A DNA stretch of 64,000 nt, taken from Eubacterium sp. (GTDB lineage: Bacteria; Bacillota; Clostridia; Oscillospirales; Acutalibacteraceae). The stretch lies in the NCBI GenBank assembly GCA_017463985.1, contig JAFUEH010000003.1:28750-92749 (forward strand). The letters are read 5' to 3'. Below the pieces are notes generated by a model. That model searched no databases. It worked only from the letters and a program-made list of their open reading frames with translations, and had not been told where the DNA came from. Shown piece after piece: positions 50,865 through 61,088 of the stretch (within the stretch, counting starts at the first letter, position 1; the number at the start of each line of letters is the position of its first letter). The position numbers and the translations under genes are program-made.

Positions 50865-50880
50865 TCCGTTATTCTACTAT

Positions 50881-50960
50881 AAAAAGTTGAAAAAAATTGA
50901 AAAAAAGTGCCAAAAACTATCACTTGTGATGATGTGCAGCGCAAAATTCTTTGCTATAAT
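50881..50960 (+). promoter_or_regulatory. Extended -10 promoter with phased A-tracts upstream
   Basis: TATAAT (50955-50960) is preceded by TGC. No good -35 is seen at the right distance. Upstream, A-tracts centred near 50883, 50893, 50903 and 50914 repeat about every 10 bp, as in curved DNA or UP-elements. ATCACTTGTGAT (50919-50930) is a perfect 12-bp palindrome between them and the -10. Confidence 0.55.
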
Positions 50961-51014
50961 ACAATTGAAAAGGTAGCATAAGTAGTTAATGAGATTACGA
51001 AAGGAGATTACAAC

Positions 51015-51578
51015 ATGGGACTTTTTAGTAAGAAAAAGAAGGAAAACCCAGCGCCGGTCGCTCCGGCACCAAAACCGGCGGCGCCTGCCGCACCGGTGGC
51101 AGCACCGCCGTCCGGCGATCAGCTGACCGCCGTCTATCAGCAATATTTCACGGGTCTTCCGTTCACGGAAGACAGCTCGCCGGCTTATGCCGCCCTGCTG
51201 GCAGCAGCAGCGGCAGAGGCGAACGCCAACCGCGCTATCGCCATTCCTGCCACGGAATGTGACGACGCCACGCTGGACCGTTTGGCGGCCAAGGCAACGC
51301 CGGAGGACGCAGCGCAACAGCTGGCAGTGGCGTTCAAAACAGGTGAATTCGGTCTGATCATCGAGGACAATGTTTACAGCGTTGACTTTATCGACCGTGT
51401 ACCGCACTGCGTGGCGCTTGCCACCCTGCTGCTGGCGCAAAAGCTGCCTGCCGGCAACCGCCAGCTCGTGATTGAGCTGGAGCCGGGCACACCGCTCGGT
51501 GCGTTCGGAGACGCGCTGAACCAAATTCAGCAATGCGACGCCTCGCTGCATTTCAGCATCACAGAGGCGGCAGATTAA
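51015..51578 (+). CDS. Small protein of unknown function upstream of the Cys-rich surface protein
   Basis: 187 residues, no family recognised. It starts MGLFSKKKKENPAP, a basic patch followed by a Pro/Ala linker (about 10-35). A compact domain follows (about 38-187) with alternating Ala-rich helices (AYAALLAAAAAEANANRAI) and strands (FGLIIEDNVYSVDFID; RQLVIELEPGTPLGAF). No signal peptide or membrane helix, so cytoplasmic. AAAGGAG precedes the ATG. It is 49 bp upstream of the large secreted protein with no terminator between, so the two are probably co-transcribed. Confidence 0.75.
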   Translation: MGLFSKKKKENPAPVAPAPKPAAPAAPVAAPPSGDQLTAVYQQYFTGLPFTEDSSPAYAALLAAAAAEANANRAIAIPATECDDATLDRLAAKATPEDAAQQLAVAFKTGEFGLIIEDNVYSVDFIDRVPHCVALATLLLAQKLPAGNRQLVIELEPGTPLGAFGDALNQIQQCDASLHFSITEAAD

Positions 51579-51627: not shown

Positions 51628-54600
51628 ATGACCATGAAAAAGAGTAAACGATTATTATCCCTGTTTTTGTCCCTGCTGATGGCGGTCGCCGGTCTTGGCT
51701 CCATCCAGGCAGAGGTGTACGCCGGTTTTGAGGACGGCGACGAATGCTTTGCCTGCGGCAACTATATTTGGGACAGTTACCGCTGCAGCGAATGCGGCGC
51801 TTGCTCCGACGAGGGCAATGAGAAATGTCATGCCAATACGCACTGTGAATTCTGCGACGCCTGCTTTGCCTCCGTCGGCTATTGGTGCGAGGACTCGGGC
51901 ATTTGTGCAGACTGCCTTGAGGACATGTTTATGCACTGTAAGGAGTGCGACGCCTGCTTTTGCAGCGAAGGCGGTATTTTGAACGACGAGGGCAGCGTTT
52001 GTCTAGGCTGTGAAAAGTGTATCTACTGCGTTGGCGATATCTGCGAGGAGTGCGGTTATTGTGACGAATGTCGTCACCAAGAGGGTGACGCGTTCCACTG
52101 TGTGGAATGTGACGCTTGCATTCAGACGGTTCAGTTTTGCGACCTCGCCGAAGGCAATTCCGACCACTGCGTAGACTGCCACGTGATATGCGATCAGTGC
52201 GGCCGCTGCAACATCCTTGACGACCTTGACATCTGTGATACCTGCGGCCTTTGCGAAGAATGCTGCGAGGAAAACGCACTGGACGCTGGCTGTGACTGCG
52301 GCGACTTCTGCGTGGAGGACTCTGATTTTGCAGACCATTTATGCGAAAATTGCGGCGAATGCTTTGACGTTTGCGAGCAGTGCGAATACTGCGGCTACTG
52401 CTTAGACTGCTGCGAGGGTAATTCCGATTGCAGCGACGGTATGTGCATTGAAAATCCCGATTACGAGGAGCATTTCTGCGAGGACTGCGGACAATGCTTT
52501 GACGACGTAGAGCAGTGCGACAGCTGCTATGACAGCGGTGAGCTCCGCTGCCGTGACTGCTGTGCTGCGATTTGCGACGATATGGGCTGCGACTGCGGCG
52601 ACCAGTGCTTTAACGACCCGGATTTTGAGGACCACCTTGCCGATGCGCACGGCGAAAGCCTTGAGCCTATTGCGCATAGCGCGGCTGTTCCCCGTGTGCG
52701 TTATTCTTATGACAACACCTACCACTGGAAGAACTGCTCTTACTGTGACAAAGCAAGCCATATCACATCTAAGGCAAAGCACACGCTGGACGCCAACGGC
52801 CATTGTACGGTTTGCAGTTATTATAAGGAACTGCCGGTGTATATCACCCATCAGCCTGTCAACGTGACGGGCAAAAAGGGCGTTCACCCTCAACGCGAGG
52901 AACTGTTTACTTACAAAGCCAACTTCAGCGTCAGCGCCGAGGGTGTTGGCGATTTGACCTATCAGTGGTATAACTGCAAGCCCAACGGCACTGCGAATTA
53001 TAAGGTACACAATGACGCGGCGGGCTACGGCGAAATTGGCGGCAACAGCGCCAAGATGACGATCAGTGTTCCCGAAGATATTTGCGAAACGACCTATTAT
53101 TATTTCTGCGAGATTAAGGATGCCGCAGGCAACAGCGTTAAAAGCGATATTGTCAGCCTCAGCGGCAAGCACAATTTCCTGAAGACCGTGGTTTATGCCA
53201 ATACCGATACCTCTTTTACGCTGAAAAACGGCCAAAAATGTCAGTGGCGCACCAGCAACGGCCACCAAAAGGAATGTATCTGCGGCACCACGCGCGGCAG
53301 GCTGGAAAAGCACAACTTTGATGCAGGCTCCTATGTGGGCGAGGACAAGAACAACCGCGAATGGCTCAAGCATACCTGCAAGGACTGCGGCTATGTGGAA
53401 TACGTCCAAAAGCACGACCACACGTATGAAACCTTTGAAATTGACGAGGCGCAAACGACCGAATATGCTCACGCTGTGAAGTGTACCTATCCGGATTGCG
53501 ACCATGTTACCTACGAACTGCACGATTTTTCACCAAGTGTTGTTGCTACGCCTTTTACTGACACCTACGGCGCTTACACGTTAGAATGTGTTGATTGCGG
53601 CTATTCAAAGAATGACCCGAATCCCGATCACTATTGGACAAAGAACAACTACCTCGGCTATGCGCGGTATGCGTCTTTGGATAACAGCATTTTCACGAAA
53701 AACGATACCGTTATGCTGCGTACCAATATTACAAGGCTTTGGGATAAGACAGGCAGATTTACCAACAAAAAGATTACCGGCTGGAAGGCGACCTGCTTCT
53801 ACGGCACCTATGCCAATACCAAAATGGACGCCACAAGTTACTTCACCTTTACGCCGCTTTCCGACGGCAACTGGACGGTAAAACTGACAAAGGCGCTGAA
53901 CAAGGAAGGCAGCAAGGTTTATTTTGAACCCACCTTCGGCACCTGTACCCATAAAAATTCAAAAGTGATTAACGCCAAAGCCGCCGTTTGCAATATCCCC
54001 GGTTACACGGGCGACACGGTTTGCGCCGACTGCGGCAAGCTCATTAAAACCGGTAACCCGATCGCGGCACCGAGCACGACGCACACCGGCACGTTAAAAT
54101 TGGTGACCGGCACCTCCCGTAAGGGCTCCTGCACGATGCGCGGTTACGAGGGCACCTATAAATGCTCCGCTTGCGGTGAAACGGTCAAGGGCAAGCTCTT
54201 GGGCTATGACCACGGCAAGTACACTCAAAAAACGGAAGGCTACAAGGCAGCAACCTGTACCGAGGACGGCTACACGGGCGATCAATATTGCAGCCACTGC
54301 GGCAAGCTCTCCGCACGCGGTAAAACGATCAAGGCGAACCATAGCAATACAAAGACAATCAATGCGAAGGAAGCTTCGTATACTGCTCCCGGCTATACCG
54401 GCGACACGTATTGCAACGTCTGCAAACAGATTGTGAAGTACGGCTATGCTATTCCGCAAAAGAAAACAACCACACTGTCAAGCGTTTCTATTAACTTTAT
54501 CCCGCCTACTTACGGCACTAACGCTTCCTCGGTGACGCTCCTATCCAAAACAACCGACTATCCCGCTTATGCCGTGACGCTGAACAATCACGCTTGGCAA

Positions 54601-55938
54601 GTTTACTCAGGCGGCTTTAAGGAATTTAACGGAACCTTCCAAAGCAATGTTCAGTATTATGCCACTTATGCTATAAAACAAAAGTCGGGCTATCAAATTA
54701 CCGAAAAAACAAAATTTTATATTAACTACAAGCAGATAGAGGCATCGTATGTTCCAAGTCTCGGCTGGATTGTTCAGTATCCGTTCAAGGTAAACGAACC
54801 AGTCAAGACTGTGTCCTTCGATTTTGACATCCCTGTTGAGGGCACAAGCGCCTCCGTACCACCTGTTATGAAAAACAGGAGTAGCAATATTACGGAATCA
54901 AGATTTTCTGGGACAAGGAGCAGTGCTTGGTATACCGATGACGGAACGGGTAATCTAACCAAATTCAACGGTACTTTTAAAGCAGGAGAATCCTATACAG
55001 CTGTAATCTGGTTTAGTGCTGCGGATTCTTATACTTTTTCCGGCGCTAGCGCAAGCCAACGCAAAGCAACTGTTAACGGACAAGAATATTCGTATTCTGC
55101 TGGCGCAGGAGGTCTTAATGCAGGCTATGTAACGGTTGAATTTACAGTATCCGACCATCAGTGGGACAGCGGCGTGATTTACCAAAAAGCAACGCCGACG
55201 CAGGAGGGCGAAACGGTTTACACCTGCTCCGTCTGCGGCACGACCAAAATTGAAAAAACGGCGAAGACGTCCGACGGCTGGGCACAGCAGGACGGCAAGT
55301 GGTATTACTACAAGAGCGGCACGCCCGTTACCGGCTGGCAGACGATCGGCGGCAAGCGGTACTGGTTCTACAGCAACGGCGTCATGGCTACCGGCTGGAT
55401 CACGAGCGGCAGCAAGAAATACTACTTTGACGCGAACGGCGCACTGGTCACCGGTCTGAAGCAGATCAGCGGTAAATGGTATTACTTCAACAGCGACGGA
55501 CTGATGCAGACCGGCTGGCAAAAGGTCAGCGGAAAATGGTACTACTTCAACACCAGCGGTGTCATGCAGACAGGCTGGCAGAAGATCAGCGGTAAGTGGT
55601 ATTACTTCAACACCAGCGGCGTGATGCAGACCGGCTGGCAAAAGATCAGCGGCAAGTGGTATTACTTCACCACGAGCGGCGACATGGTTACCGGCTGGCA
55701 GAAGATCAGCGGCAAGTGGTATTACTTCACCACGAGCGGCGACATGGTCACCGGCTGGCAGAAGATCAGCGGCAAGTGGTACTACTTCACCACGAGCGGC
55801 GACATGGTCACCGGCTGGCAAAAGATCAGCGGCAAGTGGTACTACTTCAACAGCGGCGGCGATATGCGTACTACCGCGCTGACGCAGGGCGGTAAGACCT
55901 ATTACTTCAACAGCTCCGGCGTTTGTACAAATCCATAA
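51628..55938 (+). CDS. Giant secreted Cys-rich (CxxC-array) protein with wall-binding repeats
   Basis: 1436 residues. Signal peptide (about 1-32). Residues about 38-345 form an array of CxxC pairs such as CSECGAC, CEFCDAC, CKECDAC and CENCGEC; I count about 64 Cys, with many Asp/Glu and few Lys. They resemble chained zinc ribbons, but outside the cell. A middle region (about 370-1190) holds a beta domain (VYITHQPVNVTGKKG) and several modules of the CTEDGYTGDQYCSHCGK type, with more CxxC pairs. Eleven 20-residue GWQKISGKWYYF-type repeats (about 1210-1436) should bind the wall. It may hold metal (Zn, Fe) or thiols at the surface; no enzyme motif is seen. AAGGA precedes the ATG at 51628. Confidence 0.85.
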   Translation: MTMKKSKRLLSLFLSLLMAVAGLGSIQAEVYAGFEDGDECFACGNYIWDSYRCSECGACSDEGNEKCHANTHCEFCDACFASVGYWCEDSGICADCLEDMFMHCKECDACFCSEGGILNDEGSVCLGCEKCIYCVGDICEECGYCDECRHQEGDAFHCVECDACIQTVQFCDLAEGNSDHCVDCHVICDQCGRCNILDDLDICDTCGLCEECCEENALDAGCDCGDFCVEDSDFADHLCENCGECFDVCEQCEYCGYCLDCCEGNSDCSDGMCIENPDYEEHFCEDCGQCFDDVEQCDSCYDSGELRCRDCCAAICDDMGCDCGDQCFNDPDFEDHLADAHGESLEPIAHSAAVPRVRYSYDNTYHWKNCSYCDKASHITSKAKHTLDANGHCTVCSYYKELPVYITHQPVNVTGKKGVHPQREELFTYKANFSVSAEGVGDLTYQWYNCKPNGTANYKVHNDAAGYGEIGGNSAKMTISVPEDICETTYYYFCEIKDAAGNSVKSDIVSLSGKHNFLKTVVYANTDTSFTLKNGQKCQWRTSNGHQKECICGTTRGRLEKHNFDAGSYVGEDKNNREWLKHTCKDCGYVEYVQKHDHTYETFEIDEAQTTEYAHAVKCTYPDCDHVTYELHDFSPSVVATPFTDTYGAYTLECVDCGYSKNDPNPDHYWTKNNYLGYARYASLDNSIFTKNDTVMLRTNITRLWDKTGRFTNKKITGWKATCFYGTYANTKMDATSYFTFTPLSDGNWTVKLTKALNKEGSKVYFEPTFGTCTHKNSKVINAKAAVCNIPGYTGDTVCADCGKLIKTGNPIAAPSTTHTGTLKLVTGTSRKGSCTMRGYEGTYKCSACGETVKGKLLGYDHGKYTQKTEGYKAATCTEDGYTGDQYCSHCGKLSARGKTIKANHSNTKTINAKEASYTAPGYTGDTYCNVCKQIVKYGYAIPQKKTTTLSSVSINFIPPTYGTNASSVTLLSKTTDYPAYAVTLNNHAWQVYSGGFKEFNGTFQSNVQYYATYAIKQKSGYQITEKTKFYINYKQIEASYVPSLGWIVQYPFKVNEPVKTVSFDFDIPVEGTSASVPPVMKNRSSNITESRFSGTRSSAWYTDDGTGNLTKFNGTFKAGESYTAVIWFSAADSYTFSGASASQRKATVNGQEYSYSAGAGGLNAGYVTVEFTVSDHQWDSGVIYQKATPTQEGETVYTCSVCGTTKIEKTAKTSDGWAQQDGKWYYYKSGTPVTGWQTIGGKRYWFYSNGVMATGWITSGSKKYYFDANGALVTGLKQISGKWYYFNSDGLMQTGWQKVSGKWYYFNTSGVMQTGWQKISGKWYYFNTSGVMQTGWQKISGKWYYFTTSGDMVTGWQKISGKWYYFTTSGDMVTGWQKISGKWYYFTTSGDMVTGWQKISGKWYYFNSGGDMRTTALTQGGKTYYFNSSGVCTNP
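55513..55872 (+). repeat. Six near-identical 60-bp tandem repeats
   Basis: Six copies of a 60-bp unit encode GWQK(I/V)SGKWYYF plus an eight-residue variable end. The three TTSGDMVT copies are almost identical at DNA level. They lie inside the 3' end of the Cys-rich protein gene and keep frame, so copy number could change by recombination or slippage without breaking the gene. Confidence 0.9.
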
Positions 55939-55953
55939 CAACAAATGAAACAG

Positions 55954-55985
55954 GCCCGACTGCCAACCGGCAGTCGGGCTTTTTC
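55954..55985 (+). terminator. Terminator after the Cys-rich protein gene
   Basis: GCCCGACTGCC (55954-55964) pairs perfectly with GGCAGTCGGGC (55969-55979) around a four-base loop, then TTTTT. Confidence 0.92.
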
Positions 55986-56849: not shown

Positions 56850-59800
56850 ATGAAAAAATCACTATCCCTTCTGCTCTCCGCGATTCTGGCATTTTCCTGT
56901 CTGCTCGGCGTACCGTTTACGGCGACGGCGGCCAGCGTTGCCTCCGGCACCTGCGGCACTGACCTGAGCTGGACGCTGGACGACAGCGGCACCTTGACCG
57001 TCAGCGGCTCCGGTAACAGAATGACGGATTATTACGACAACAGTCCTGCGCCGTGGTACGACTACCGCGCACAGATCAAAAAAGCGGTGATTAGCAGCGG
57101 TATCGCCAACATCGGCTCACGCGCCTTTTTGGACTGCACCGCTCTGACCGAGGTGGATTGGGGCACGATCGATACGATCGGTGACCACGCGTTCATGAAC
57201 TGCACCGCGCTCAAGCACGCGATCCTGCCGGACAGCTGCACCTGGATATGGACAAACGTCTTTGAAAACTGCACGGCGCTGCAGAGCGCCTATATCGGCT
57301 ATGTCAATTCTTATGCCGCCACTGTGCCGCAGGAATGCTTCAAGGGCTGTACGGCGCTGGCTGTCGTCGGTCTCGGCACGGGTATCAGTACACTCGGCAC
57401 GGATTGCTTCAGCGGCTGCGCAGCACTGACGGCGATTATTTCTGACAACAGCAATATACAGAACACGGACTACAATGTCGTCGGCTGGAGCGACCGGAGC
57501 GGCGTTTGCTCAGACAACACCTATTCACAAAGCAAGCTGGAATGGCATTTCGAACTGGGCGAGGCACGTCTTTACTTCACCGGTTCGGGCGACATGAGCT
57601 TTTACGAGAACGGCTCACAGCCGTGGCAGCACTTCAGCGGCGCCGTCAATAACGTTGACTTTTCAACGACCGACGGCAAGACCTCTGTTTCTACCACCGC
57701 CTTCCAAGGCAGGGACAAAATCGAAACAGTTGATTTCACCAATATCTATGCGATCGGCTGGGGCGCCTTTGCGGAATGCGCTGCGCTGCAGGCGGCCGAT
57801 TTTAAAGCGCCGCTGACGCAGATATGGAACTACGCCTTCGCTAACTGCACGGCGTTGGATCATATCACCTTTGAAGAAGGCGCGGAGGCACTGCATATTT
57901 ATCCCTGGGCGTTCAACAACTGCACCGGTACGACCTACTGGCTGAATATCCCGTCAAATTGCAGCGCCATCGACGACCACGCCTTTTGGGGCACGAACTT
58001 TAACTACATCCACCTTTACAGCAGTACCGTGACGATTGGTGAGGACGCCTTCGGCAACGGCGAAGGAGGCTACGCGCGTTTCTTTGCACCGGGCGGCGTA
58101 CAAACAACGACCTTTGACTTCGTCACTGCCAGCCGTGATAAAAACGGTTACAACTGGTGGTACTACTGTAACGACGACGCGCACGTTTACACAACAGAAG
58201 CTGTTGCGCCGACCTGCACGGAGCAGGGCTATGACGAATATGGCTGTCACTTCTGTGACGCGGATAAACTGAAAAATAATTTTGTACCGGCGCTCGGACA
58301 CCAATACCGCTATACCGGCAACACCAACAACGTGCTGCACTATGAATGTACACGCTGTGGAGAAAAGAACCTGGAGCTGAACGCCTTTGAGGCCGGCGAG
58401 CTGTTTGCCGGTGCACTAAGCTCCACCGCCGGCGACACAAAATACAATCAATCCGATTATGACGGCAGGGCCGATTTACTGGTGGACGGCGTGATCAACG
58501 CCAAAGACTTCAAGATGCTGCAGGACCTGCTGGCAGCGCCGGACCTGACCGGCAAAGAGACCGTCGTCGACACCGCTACTACTTACCAGACGATCGAGGG
58601 CTTCGGCGCCTCTGCGGCCTGGTGGTCACAGTACGTCGGCACCTGGGATAATGCGGAGGATATTATCAGGCTGCTGTACTCCCCCACTGACGGCATCGGC
58701 CTGAACATCTACCGCTACAACCTCGGCGGCGGCAGCGAGGATCAGCAGGATTATGCGCTGTACGTAGCTGACGCCAGAACCCACTGCTTTATGCAGCAGG
58801 ACGGCACCTATAACTGGAATAACGACGCCGGCGCTATGAACGCTTTGGCGATCGCCAACCGGCTGAACCCTGATTTAAAGGTAACGCTGTTTGCCAACTC
58901 GGCACCGTATTTCATGACGAAAAACGGCAAAACCTACGGCGCGCTGACGACGGACAGCGACGGCAACGTCTCCGGCACGGAGAATCTGGACGCCGCTCAG
59001 TTCACCGCTTATGCGAATTATATCACCACCTGTGCGGAGCATTTTATCGACGAGGGCTACGACGTCACCGCCGTATCACCGATCAACGAGCCGGAATGGG
59101 ATTGGAGCGGCTGGTACAACGGCGACGGCACACAATCCTCAAACCAGGAGGGCTGCCACTTTAACGAGGATACCGCCCGTGCGTTTTACAACAACGCCAT
59201 GGTACCGGCGCTGCAAAATAACGCCAAGCTGAACGGCAAGGTATCGCTGGAGGTTTGGGAAAGCGGTCAGATCAATCACAACTGGTGGTGGGAGCGCTTT
59301 ATGAATCAGTGCTTCTCTACGAAGAATTACGATACTGCCTCCACCGGCTGCGACGGTAAAACGACCTACTCCGGCAGCGGCTATGCCGGCAATAACGCGA
59401 ACATCCGCGCTTACGTTGACGCTGTGGCCACCCACTCCTACTGGGCCTCTACGGACGACAGAACTACCGTGGCGAACCTGGCCAACAACGGCGAATTTTT
59501 CAGCTCGCTGAACCTGCGCTTCAAGCAGACAGAATACTGCCAGATGAATACAGACGCCAATACGAATGTGCTCGGTCATATTCAGGCGGAGGGCGGCAAC
59601 ACCAACGGCATGACCATTGACTACGGTTTGGCGCTGGCGGACATCATCTATCAAGACATGACGATCCTCAATGCAGTGGAATGGGACTGGTGGACAGCCT
59701 GCGGCAAGGGTGTTTATCCGGACAGCCTGGTGTACGTCAATGCCAGCAATCACGACCATATTGAACCGGCAAAGCGGCTGTGGGCGCTCGGCAATTATTC

Positions 59801-61088
59801 TAAATTCATTGACGAGGGTGCGGTGCGCGTGAAGGTCACCACCGGCGAGGCCTTCGGCAAGGAGCTGACCACCAACACCACCTATACCTGGACCTCGGGC
59901 GACAACTCCGGCGTGGATAAAAACAACTATCTCGAGGAAACAGCTTATCTGAATCCGGACGGCAGCCTTGTCATCGTTTACGTTAATAATTCCGATACTA
60001 CGGAATGTACCACGTTCACAGAGGGCAGCTATACCAAATTTGAATCTTATGTCACCTCCGCCACGAAGGATCTTGAAAAATACCAGTCCGGCGATCCGGC
60101 TGGCGCTGTTTATATTCCGGCGCGCAGCATCACGACCGTCGTCCTCAAGACGGCCGCCACGCACGCAAAAAGCACGGACGGCGCCTATCTGTTCACCTAC
60201 TTCACTGGTAACAGCCAAAGCGAGCAGCAGATCCGCTTTGCGGTATCGGAGGACGGTTATCATTTTACACCGCTGAACGGCAACAACACGGTCATCACCC
60301 AGACAAAGGGCACGCTCAACTGCCGTGATCCGTATATCTTCAAGGGACAGGATAATTACTATTATCTGATCGCTACCGATATGGACGCCTCCACGAACCA
60401 GTGGTGGGGCAACAGCAATACGATGGTGCTTTGGCGCTCAACGGACCTCCTCCACTGGACCGATGAAACCGTTATCAACATGAGCGAGATCACCGGCGCC
60501 GATGACATCCAGCGCTGCTGGGCGCCGCAGGTATTTTGGGACGAAGCGGCGCAGCAATATATGGTCTACTTCGGGCTGGCTTCCTGGAGCGTCACGCAAA
60601 ATCTGACCGAGCTGTATTACTGCTACACCGACGATCTGCTCGACCAAAGCCGCTACACCTATCCGCAGCTGTTATATAAACCTGCCGATAACGGTGCAGC
60701 GATCGACGGCGATATTATCTATGACAGCAAAACACAGACCTATTATCTGTATTACAAGGACGAATCCAACGCGACCATCTGCTATGTAACGAGCGACAGT
60801 CTGACCGGTCCTTACGGCGACGCCGCCAACCCGAAAAAGCTGATTGATACCGACGTCGGCTTAGAGGGCTGTAACGCGCACCGGATCACGGGTACGGACA
60901 CGATCGTTATGCTGGCAGACGCCTACGGCGACGGCTACTTTGTGATGTGTCAGTCAGACGATTACGAAAATTATACGCTGCTCCCGTCTAACACCTACAC
61001 CATCAATAATTGCTCACCGCGTCACGGCAGCGTTATCGCCATCAGCGACGCGCAGTATGATGCCCTTATTCAACATTACGGCTATTAA
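56850..61088 (+). CDS. Secreted multimodular GH30-GH43 glycoside hydrolase with BspA-type LRRs
   Basis: 1412 residues. Signal peptide (about 1-28). BspA-like leucine-rich repeats (about 60-420, e.g. NIGSRAFLDCTALTEVDW). A CTEQGYDEYGC module (about 450) shared with the protein at 51628. A single dockerin-like Ca loop (VDGVINAKDFKML, about 540-560). A GH30 domain (about 575-1090) with acid/base Glu in INEPEWDW (about 746) and nucleophile in KQTEYCQM (about 893). A C-terminal GH43 five-blade domain (about 1110-1412) with RDP in NCRDPYIF, Asp in AIDGDII and Glu in LEGCNAH. Likely targets are galactan, xylan or arabinan side chains. No wall anchor is seen. It is preceded by GAGGAGTGA and has no promoter of its own that I can see. 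Confidence 0.92.
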   Translation: MKKSLSLLLSAILAFSCLLGVPFTATAASVASGTCGTDLSWTLDDSGTLTVSGSGNRMTDYYDNSPAPWYDYRAQIKKAVISSGIANIGSRAFLDCTALTEVDWGTIDTIGDHAFMNCTALKHAILPDSCTWIWTNVFENCTALQSAYIGYVNSYAATVPQECFKGCTALAVVGLGTGISTLGTDCFSGCAALTAIISDNSNIQNTDYNVVGWSDRSGVCSDNTYSQSKLEWHFELGEARLYFTGSGDMSFYENGSQPWQHFSGAVNNVDFSTTDGKTSVSTTAFQGRDKIETVDFTNIYAIGWGAFAECAALQAADFKAPLTQIWNYAFANCTALDHITFEEGAEALHIYPWAFNNCTGTTYWLNIPSNCSAIDDHAFWGTNFNYIHLYSSTVTIGEDAFGNGEGGYARFFAPGGVQTTTFDFVTASRDKNGYNWWYYCNDDAHVYTTEAVAPTCTEQGYDEYGCHFCDADKLKNNFVPALGHQYRYTGNTNNVLHYECTRCGEKNLELNAFEAGELFAGALSSTAGDTKYNQSDYDGRADLLVDGVINAKDFKMLQDLLAAPDLTGKETVVDTATTYQTIEGFGASAAWWSQYVGTWDNAEDIIRLLYSPTDGIGLNIYRYNLGGGSEDQQDYALYVADARTHCFMQQDGTYNWNNDAGAMNALAIANRLNPDLKVTLFANSAPYFMTKNGKTYGALTTDSDGNVSGTENLDAAQFTAYANYITTCAEHFIDEGYDVTAVSPINEPEWDWSGWYNGDGTQSSNQEGCHFNEDTARAFYNNAMVPALQNNAKLNGKVSLEVWESGQINHNWWWERFMNQCFSTKNYDTASTGCDGKTTYSGSGYAGNNANIRAYVDAVATHSYWASTDDRTTVANLANNGEFFSSLNLRFKQTEYCQMNTDANTNVLGHIQAEGGNTNGMTIDYGLALADIIYQDMTILNAVEWDWWTACGKGVYPDSLVYVNASNHDHIEPAKRLWALGNYSKFIDEGAVRVKVTTGEAFGKELTTNTTYTWTSGDNSGVDKNNYLEETAYLNPDGSLVIVYVNNSDTTECTTFTEGSYTKFESYVTSATKDLEKYQSGDPAGAVYIPARSITTVVLKTAATHAKSTDGAYLFTYFTGNSQSEQQIRFAVSEDGYHFTPLNGNNTVITQTKGTLNCRDPYIFKGQDNYYYLIATDMDASTNQWWGNSNTMVLWRSTDLLHWTDETVINMSEITGADDIQRCWAPQVFWDEAAQQYMVYFGLASWSVTQNLTELYYCYTDDLLDQSRYTYPQLLYKPADNGAAIDGDIIYDSKTQTYYLYYKDESNATICYVTSDSLTGPYGDAANPKKLIDTDVGLEGCNAHRITGTDTIVMLADAYGDGYFVMCQSDDYENYTLLPSNTYTINNCSPRHGSVIAISDAQYDALIQHYGY

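Follow-up and report, generated by a model that had tools for sequence, protein, structure and literature searches.

A conserved and probably exported cysteine/histidine array, a candidate zinc-stapled head, on a choline-binding protein of Eubacterium sp.

In this study, we examined a 64,000-nucleotide stretch of Eubacterium sp. DNA (contig JAFUEH010000003.1; hereafter the window) and, within it, an open reading frame (ORF) of 1436 amino acids at 51628-55938 (+) whose N-terminal part is a dense array of cysteines. An earlier note, made from the letters alone, had placed the frame at exactly these coordinates and described a signal-peptide-like start, about 64 Cys, CxxC pairs with acidic spacers and 11 wall-binding repeats, all of which our counts and the Pfam comparison bore out. 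The array is real and conserved, has no annotation and is probably exported; most likely it forms a zinc-stapled head on a wall-anchored protein. That it ligates metal is the firmest inference, and one we consider very probable; that it serves in binding or adhesion is weaker, the chances being about balanced. For the window protein taken together, we favour, with modest confidence, a zinc-stapled, wall-anchored surface domain with an outward binding or adhesive head. The parts that bear on this interpretation are as follows.

51628..51723 (+): Sec-type signal-peptide-like N-terminus, residues 1-32, read directly from the sequence
51739..52662 (+): Cys/His array, residues 38-345, 64 Cys, from composition, alignments and AlphaFold2
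52189..52338 (+): array repeat R1, residues 188-237, 12 Cys+His, CxxCGxC...CxxCGxCxxCC...CxC...C...H
52342..52473 (+): array repeat R2, residues 239-282, 12 Cys+His, including the non-conserved C249
52477..52635 (+): array repeat R3, residues 284-336, 13 Cys+His, including the non-conserved C316
55276..55935 (+): 11 choline-binding (wall-binding) repeats, by Pfam (PF19127 / PF01473) and by count

The whole protein has 96 Cys, 64 of them within residues 38-345. Residues 37-350 contain 32 overlapping CxxC (12.8 +/- 2.9 expected from 5000 shuffles, which never exceeded 24), and 82 Asp+Glu versus 8 Lys+Arg. The 52 other long non-overlapping ORFs of the window, picked by script without a gene call, averaged 1.75% Cys; the one other Cys-rich ORF, at 50880-51551 (-) with 6.7% Cys, is antisense to ORF 51015-51578 and probably not a gene. 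At the N-terminus, KKSKR is followed by a hydrophobic run and VYA/G, a signal-peptide-like arrangement. At the C-terminus, the 11 repeats of the GKWYYF kind matched PF19127 (E 3.6e-65) and PF01473 (E 2.2e-63), which places the protein among choline-binding surface proteins as regards its anchor only. Searching the own genome (2.58 Mb) with the array gave a single match.

A homologue search for the Cys array, as the earlier note had proposed, returned 46 loci in genome contigs. Our alignments leave out L039 (wrong frame taken by the script) and L038 (cut 5' end); the main alignment of 40 sequences also leaves out L025, L032, L041, L050 and L055, whose arrays exceed 600 amino acids, and a 35-row version (A5) further leaves out L020, L027, L036, L052 and L053. 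Among the 40 rows, 62 columns are at least 60% Cys and 49 at least 90% Cys, and 60 of the window array's Cys fall in the 62. The non-Cys columns conserved at 75% or more comprise six His (72, 157, 180, 237, 282, 336), eight Gly and one Glu, and in A5 28 columns are invariant across all 35 sequences (26 Cys and two His). Such conservation of Cys and His columns one by one suits a folded structural array. Where a Cys is replaced, His is the commonest substitute (32 of 136 residues versus 5.0% His elsewhere; Fisher 4e-13, uncorrected for kinship). Parsimony on a FastTree tree inferred 54 Cys losses, of which 11, in nine columns, were to His, versus 76 of 3421 gains elsewhere (p 5e-8). Metal ligands would be expected to exchange in this way and disulfides would not, so that the former are favoured; conserved Cys and His with Cys-to-His exchange are one mark of a zinc-binding Cys/His array as a mechanistic class, for which the window array is on this evidence a candidate. 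Joint loss of Cys columns was considered as a guide to pairing and dropped, since the leading pairs seem to reflect common descent.

Three copies of one unit (R1 to R3) make up the second half of the array; they hold 12, 12 and 13 Cys+His, with one non-conserved Cys in each of the last two. Twelve ligands per repeat would suit three four-ligand sites, as a matter of arithmetic only. At least one copy of the repeat motif, in a pattern derived from the array family itself, occurs in 41 of the 46 proteins, the window protein included. AlphaFold2 modelled residues 34-401 from 40 sequences with a mean pLDDT of 88.4, predicting repeating xCxxCGxC knuckles with bridge residues on both sides and short helices that start at CxxC; we take these to resemble zinc knuckles and treble clefs. 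The window array matched no Pfam family, zinc-ribbon and zinc-finger families included, and the NCBIfam scan was blank as well; the best zinc family match across 35 arrays was Zn_ribbon_3 (Pfam, E 0.047). The earlier note's remark that it knew of no described system with this layout is supported in the sense that no model in the Pfam or NCBIfam libraries searched covers the array. A profile search of the PDB gave weak matches to zinc-finger proteins (E 1.2e-4 to 2.5e-3, which carry little weight given the composition) and to DHHC zinc cores (E 0.022, DHHC20).

Surface location, also suggested earlier, agrees with both ends of the window protein, and the relatives point the same way. A signal-peptide-like start was found in 42 of the 46 (score of at least 12 on a crude home-made scale with no control). 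C-terminal domains were scanned in 44 relatives, over the last 1100 amino acids at most, some of them cut by contig ends; here and in the locus counts, the near-copies L014/L020 and L034/L036 were counted singly. Anchor domains were of several kinds (Dockerin_1 in 9 of 44, SLH in 3, CWB2 in 1, choline-binding in 1), and other domains were Big_2 (5), divergent InlB repeats (5) and fn3 (4). That the same head is joined to different anchors is fair evidence that it works outside the cell, and we infer that the array is exported.

From these observations we propose the following mechanism. The N-terminal array would be a folded, exported metalloprotein domain in which zinc ions are held one after another by CxxC knuckles and conserved His; with 62 Cys and six His columns as ligands, there could be no more than about 17 four-ligand sites. 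These ions would act as staples in place of disulfides, whose usual machinery was not found in the own genome. The choline-binding repeats would hold the protein at the wall and so present the array outward as a binding or adhesive head, whatever its partner may be. The earlier note's view of the array is supported in part, in that it looks exported, anchored and metal-binding.

Several points weigh against this proposal. The AlphaFold2 pTM is only 0.59. Polyferredoxin chains (E 0.044-2.1) and disulfide-bonded TNF-receptor modules (E 1.9-2.4) are among the weak PDB profile matches, and the top single-sequence PDB match is a polyferredoxin (E 0.011). At least 30 of the 44 relatives have no dockerin, SLH, CWB2 or choline-binding domain in the part scanned. 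The alignment rows are related, so that the statistics are not fully independent, and Cys+His per repeat varies, from 11 to 14 in the copies printed and 17 in one L032 match.

As a first alternative, the domain may be stapled by disulfides, its Cys pairing once outside the cell, a pattern seen in many cysteine-rich surface proteins of eukaryotes. The apparently extracellular position of the array would suit this, as would the TNF-receptor matches, and the outer-membrane-type neighbours of the Bacteroidaceae relatives (below) would imply a periplasm, where disulfides may form. The conserved His columns, the Cys-to-His exchange and the CxxCG knuckles speak against it, and so does the own genome (97% complete), in which a search limited to three enzyme families (DsbA, VKOR and DsbD) found no DsbA over the cut-off, no credible VKOR and no DsbD, making disulfides less likely. 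The two sub-threshold candidates were rejected, a DsbA match (L074) in a frame without CxxC and a VKOR match (L075) antisense to a long ORF. We therefore regard disulfide stapling as unlikely. The earlier note had named an EGF-like or known-adhesin fold with disulfides as grounds for abandoning its reading; none was found by Pfam, though TNF-receptor chains are among the weak matches of the PDB profile search.

A metal store or scavenger, taking up or buffering zinc or toxic metals at the surface, is improbable to a slightly greater degree. In its favour, soft ligands and acidic residues are packed very densely in the array; position-by-position conservation, however, is unlike a flexible metal sponge, and the only neighbour families present in four or more loci are three signalling genes, although two or three loci may have a metal gene among the smaller, largely unannotated clusters. 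Metal capture and a thiol buffer, both raised in the earlier note, are accordingly not favoured, the Cys and His columns being conserved individually across 40 proteins.

An iron-sulfur or redox array, with CxxCxxC knuckles that hold clusters or act as a thiol buffer, is very unlikely. Apart from the polyferredoxin match, one of the 35 arrays matches Fer4_6 (E 0.025). Against this, the window array has no ferredoxin match in Pfam and lacks CxxCxxCxxxCP, the ferredoxin motif, Cys exchanges with His, and the protein starts with a Sec-like signal peptide, the Sec route being one that passes unfolded chains. Finally, a chance or compositional artefact, as one match within the genus proved to be (G079, below), is already refuted by conservation, namely the 28 invariant columns, with the repeat motif in most of the proteins agreeing, though it was written from the family.

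With the zinc-stapled head as the preferred interpretation, we turn to the distribution of the array. Of 80 genomes in the genus, five gave a match: besides the own genome, G012, G013 and G018 hold true relatives, and the fifth match is spurious. This last, G079, was dropped since its match is compositional, the in-frame reading being almost free of Cys and holding no array. The three relatives show 46-47% identity; the array is common to these proteins, while their C-terminus is different, fibronectin-like by eye and without choline-binding repeats. In the family-level sample, 16 of 398 genomes matched at E <=0.001, ten of them at <=1e-6; at 1e-10, matches were found in 4 of 391 genomes of the class-level sample and in 1 of 398 of the phylum-level sample, the own genome included in both. 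The array is thus patchy, and rare outside certain Clostridia. The genome-contig scan, which used two short patterns on one genome per species (84,980 species), placed its 46 loci mostly in Clostridia and in one Bacteroidaceae clade; the record title names a ruminant animal for 22 of them, with no baseline for ruminant samples. Viral contigs gave 32 pattern matches and no relative, and phage records no array match.

Family members with signal-peptide-like starts have 48 to 284 Cys each. Two large ones, at L032 6123-10727 and L055 6675-10682, carry 284 and 238 Cys per protein behind such a start. At the compact end, plasmid records gave one relative, from Vescimonas fastidiosa MM35 (human source; L148 6890-8446), a protein of 518 amino acids with 39 Cys in residues 35-215 and 34% identity over 215 aligned positions. 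It has no threefold C-terminal repeat by reading, and ends in a sortase-signal-like tail scoring 13.4, below the cut-off of 15.9. Annotated as 'hypothetical protein', it was the sole annotated member encountered.

Six loci, from four metagenome-assembled genomes (three of the six in one of them), are labelled Bacteroidaceae. Neighbours at the four loci scanned include an outer-membrane efflux protein (L029) and PorZ of the type IX secretion system (L046), both of which fit Bacteroidota, as well as CotH (L044) and peptidase M64 (L043). In the tree, a branch (99/96) sets the six apart from all other rows, of which the nearest are two from Lachnospiraceae (L049 and L053); subject to the position of the root, this fits one transfer. 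TPR-AraC regulators lie directly upstream of two of these array genes (L029 5903-7618 and L046 5705-7438).

Beyond the earlier note, the array is a family with different C-terminal anchors and a threefold internal repeat, often with a sensor-kinase/LuxR-type regulator nearby. The genes most often found in relatives no more than five ORFs from the array gene were a LuxR-type response regulator (14 loci), HisKA_7TM (13) and HATPase (11), the names being taken from three triads; all other neighbour clusters occur at three loci or fewer and are mostly unannotated. By tblastn, the regulator lies in the fetched flank at 17 of 46 loci, and a 7TM-LuxR or GerE protein at three more (20 of 46), a count that covers flanks of unequal length, the near-copies L014 and L020, and genes not all adjacent or on the same strand. 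At two loci, L019 6570-7589 (-) and L032 4654-5727 (-), a 7TM sensor region is fused to a LuxR DNA-binding domain beside the array gene (by Pfam for L019 and by 52% identity for L032).

For the window gene itself, no triad gene was found in the window, and the array gene is not linked to a regulator. Elsewhere in the own genome, at L084 7516-11116 (G000:C10), a 7TM sensor, a HATPase kinase and a LuxR response regulator form a complete triad, unlinked to the array. Across the genus, the 7TM gene is present in 20 of 80 genomes, including all four with the array (p 0.003), and G012 is the one genome in which both lie on the same contig. The family sample has the 7TM gene in 53 of 398 genomes, including 6 of the 10 whose array match reaches 1e-6 or better (p 6e-4; a limit chosen after seeing the list) and 8 of the 16 at 0.001, kinship being ignored in both. 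The triad is commoner than the array. Among 12 array-negative genomes whose triad neighbourhood was inspected, four (G019, G034, G147 and G176) have a signal-peptide-like ORF of 458-1010 amino acids next after the regulator, so that the triad is not specific to the array. A dedicated regulator for the window gene was therefore rejected, its triad lying on another contig and triads elsewhere preceding other exported proteins. In another of the 12, G367, a protein of 1178 amino acids lies near the triad (L141 6260-9793, -); its 153 Cys and 93 CxxC form a tandem array of great regularity, so arrays are more varied than our profile finds.

The remaining features of the window gene are the following.

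52675..52833 (+): HW-CxxC-H-H-CxxC domain, residues 350-402, in alignment A2 and the A4 consensus
52834..55137 (+): middle region with three C-x10-CxxC repeats, blank in Pfam and NCBIfam scans
55952..55981 (+): terminator-like hairpin 3' of the stop codon, 13 pairs, 9 of them G-C, from a pattern scan only

The HW-CxxC-H-H-CxxC domain is perhaps one further metal site. Beyond the array, as the earlier note had it, more CxxC pairs occur within residues 370-932, and also at residue 1200. The middle region (52834-55137) has conserved His and Trp and aligns in the three same-genus relatives. Terminator-like hairpins number 14 sites across the region versus 7.5 +/- 2.9 in shuffles. Downstream, at 56850-61088, lies a large protein with a signal-peptide-like start, BspA-type LRR, GH30 and a weak GH130-like match below the cut-off.

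Among known systems, zinc ribbons, DHHC zinc cores and Cys4/Cys3His fingers share the CxxCG knuckles with the array, and DHHC20 and other zinc proteins show weak profile similarity to it, but the window array has no Pfam match to such families, and those proteins are intracellular or cytosol-facing. Pneumococcal PspA and PspC likewise end in choline-binding repeats, and only the anchor is shared (298.6 of 850 and 250.3 of 700 bits, below the NCBIfam cut-offs). The Clostridioides difficile exosporium protein CdeC is another cysteine-rich protein. A bacterial family of the present kind was not among the top matches of literature searches, which covered open-licence PubMed Central.

The closest in way of working are the zinc-binding proteins of Lactococcus lactis and the variant-specific surface proteins (VSPs) of Giardia. 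The L. lactis membrane proteins Llmg_0524 and Llmg_0526 carry a CX2CX10CX2C motif shown to bind zinc, and Llmg_0524 affects cell wall integrity (PMC4628341). They resemble the window protein in their Gram-positive host and CxxC-type motif, and differ in having four Cys each, compared with 64 in the window array. The same paper describes Gram-positive extracytoplasmic proteins as cysteine-poor ('cysteine exclusion'; PMC4628341), to which a conserved family with 48 to 284 Cys per member is a striking exception. The family suggests that anaerobes may brace surface proteins with metal ions, and the compact relative in a named strain, V. fastidiosa MM35, makes the idea testable. The relatives of the window array, in other gut bacteria of two phyla, are uncatalogued, no Pfam or NCBIfam model for the array having been found in the copies searched.

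Giardia VSPs, as described in PMC2996952, share with the window protein a signal peptide, the surface of a gut organism and dense CxxC; substoichiometric zinc binding is reported there, with a mean of 12.6 CxxC per kb, compared with our 34.6 per kb in the window array and 9.5 per kb over the whole gene. VSPs are eukaryotic and defined by a conserved C-terminus, which was not searched for here and in whose place the window protein has choline-binding repeats; none of 35 arrays had the Pfam VSP family among its listed matches (E up to 1). The two may work alike, with no sign of kinship found. We give about an even chance to the broader proposal that these proteins are an undescribed class in anaerobic gut bacteria: exported zinc-finger arrays with a dozen or more metal sites and several anchors, often near a 7TM sensor kinase/LuxR regulator and apparently passed between Bacillota and Bacteroidota, which would be an independent bacterial counterpart of the Giardia CxxC coats, with zinc doing the work of disulfides where there is no oxygen.

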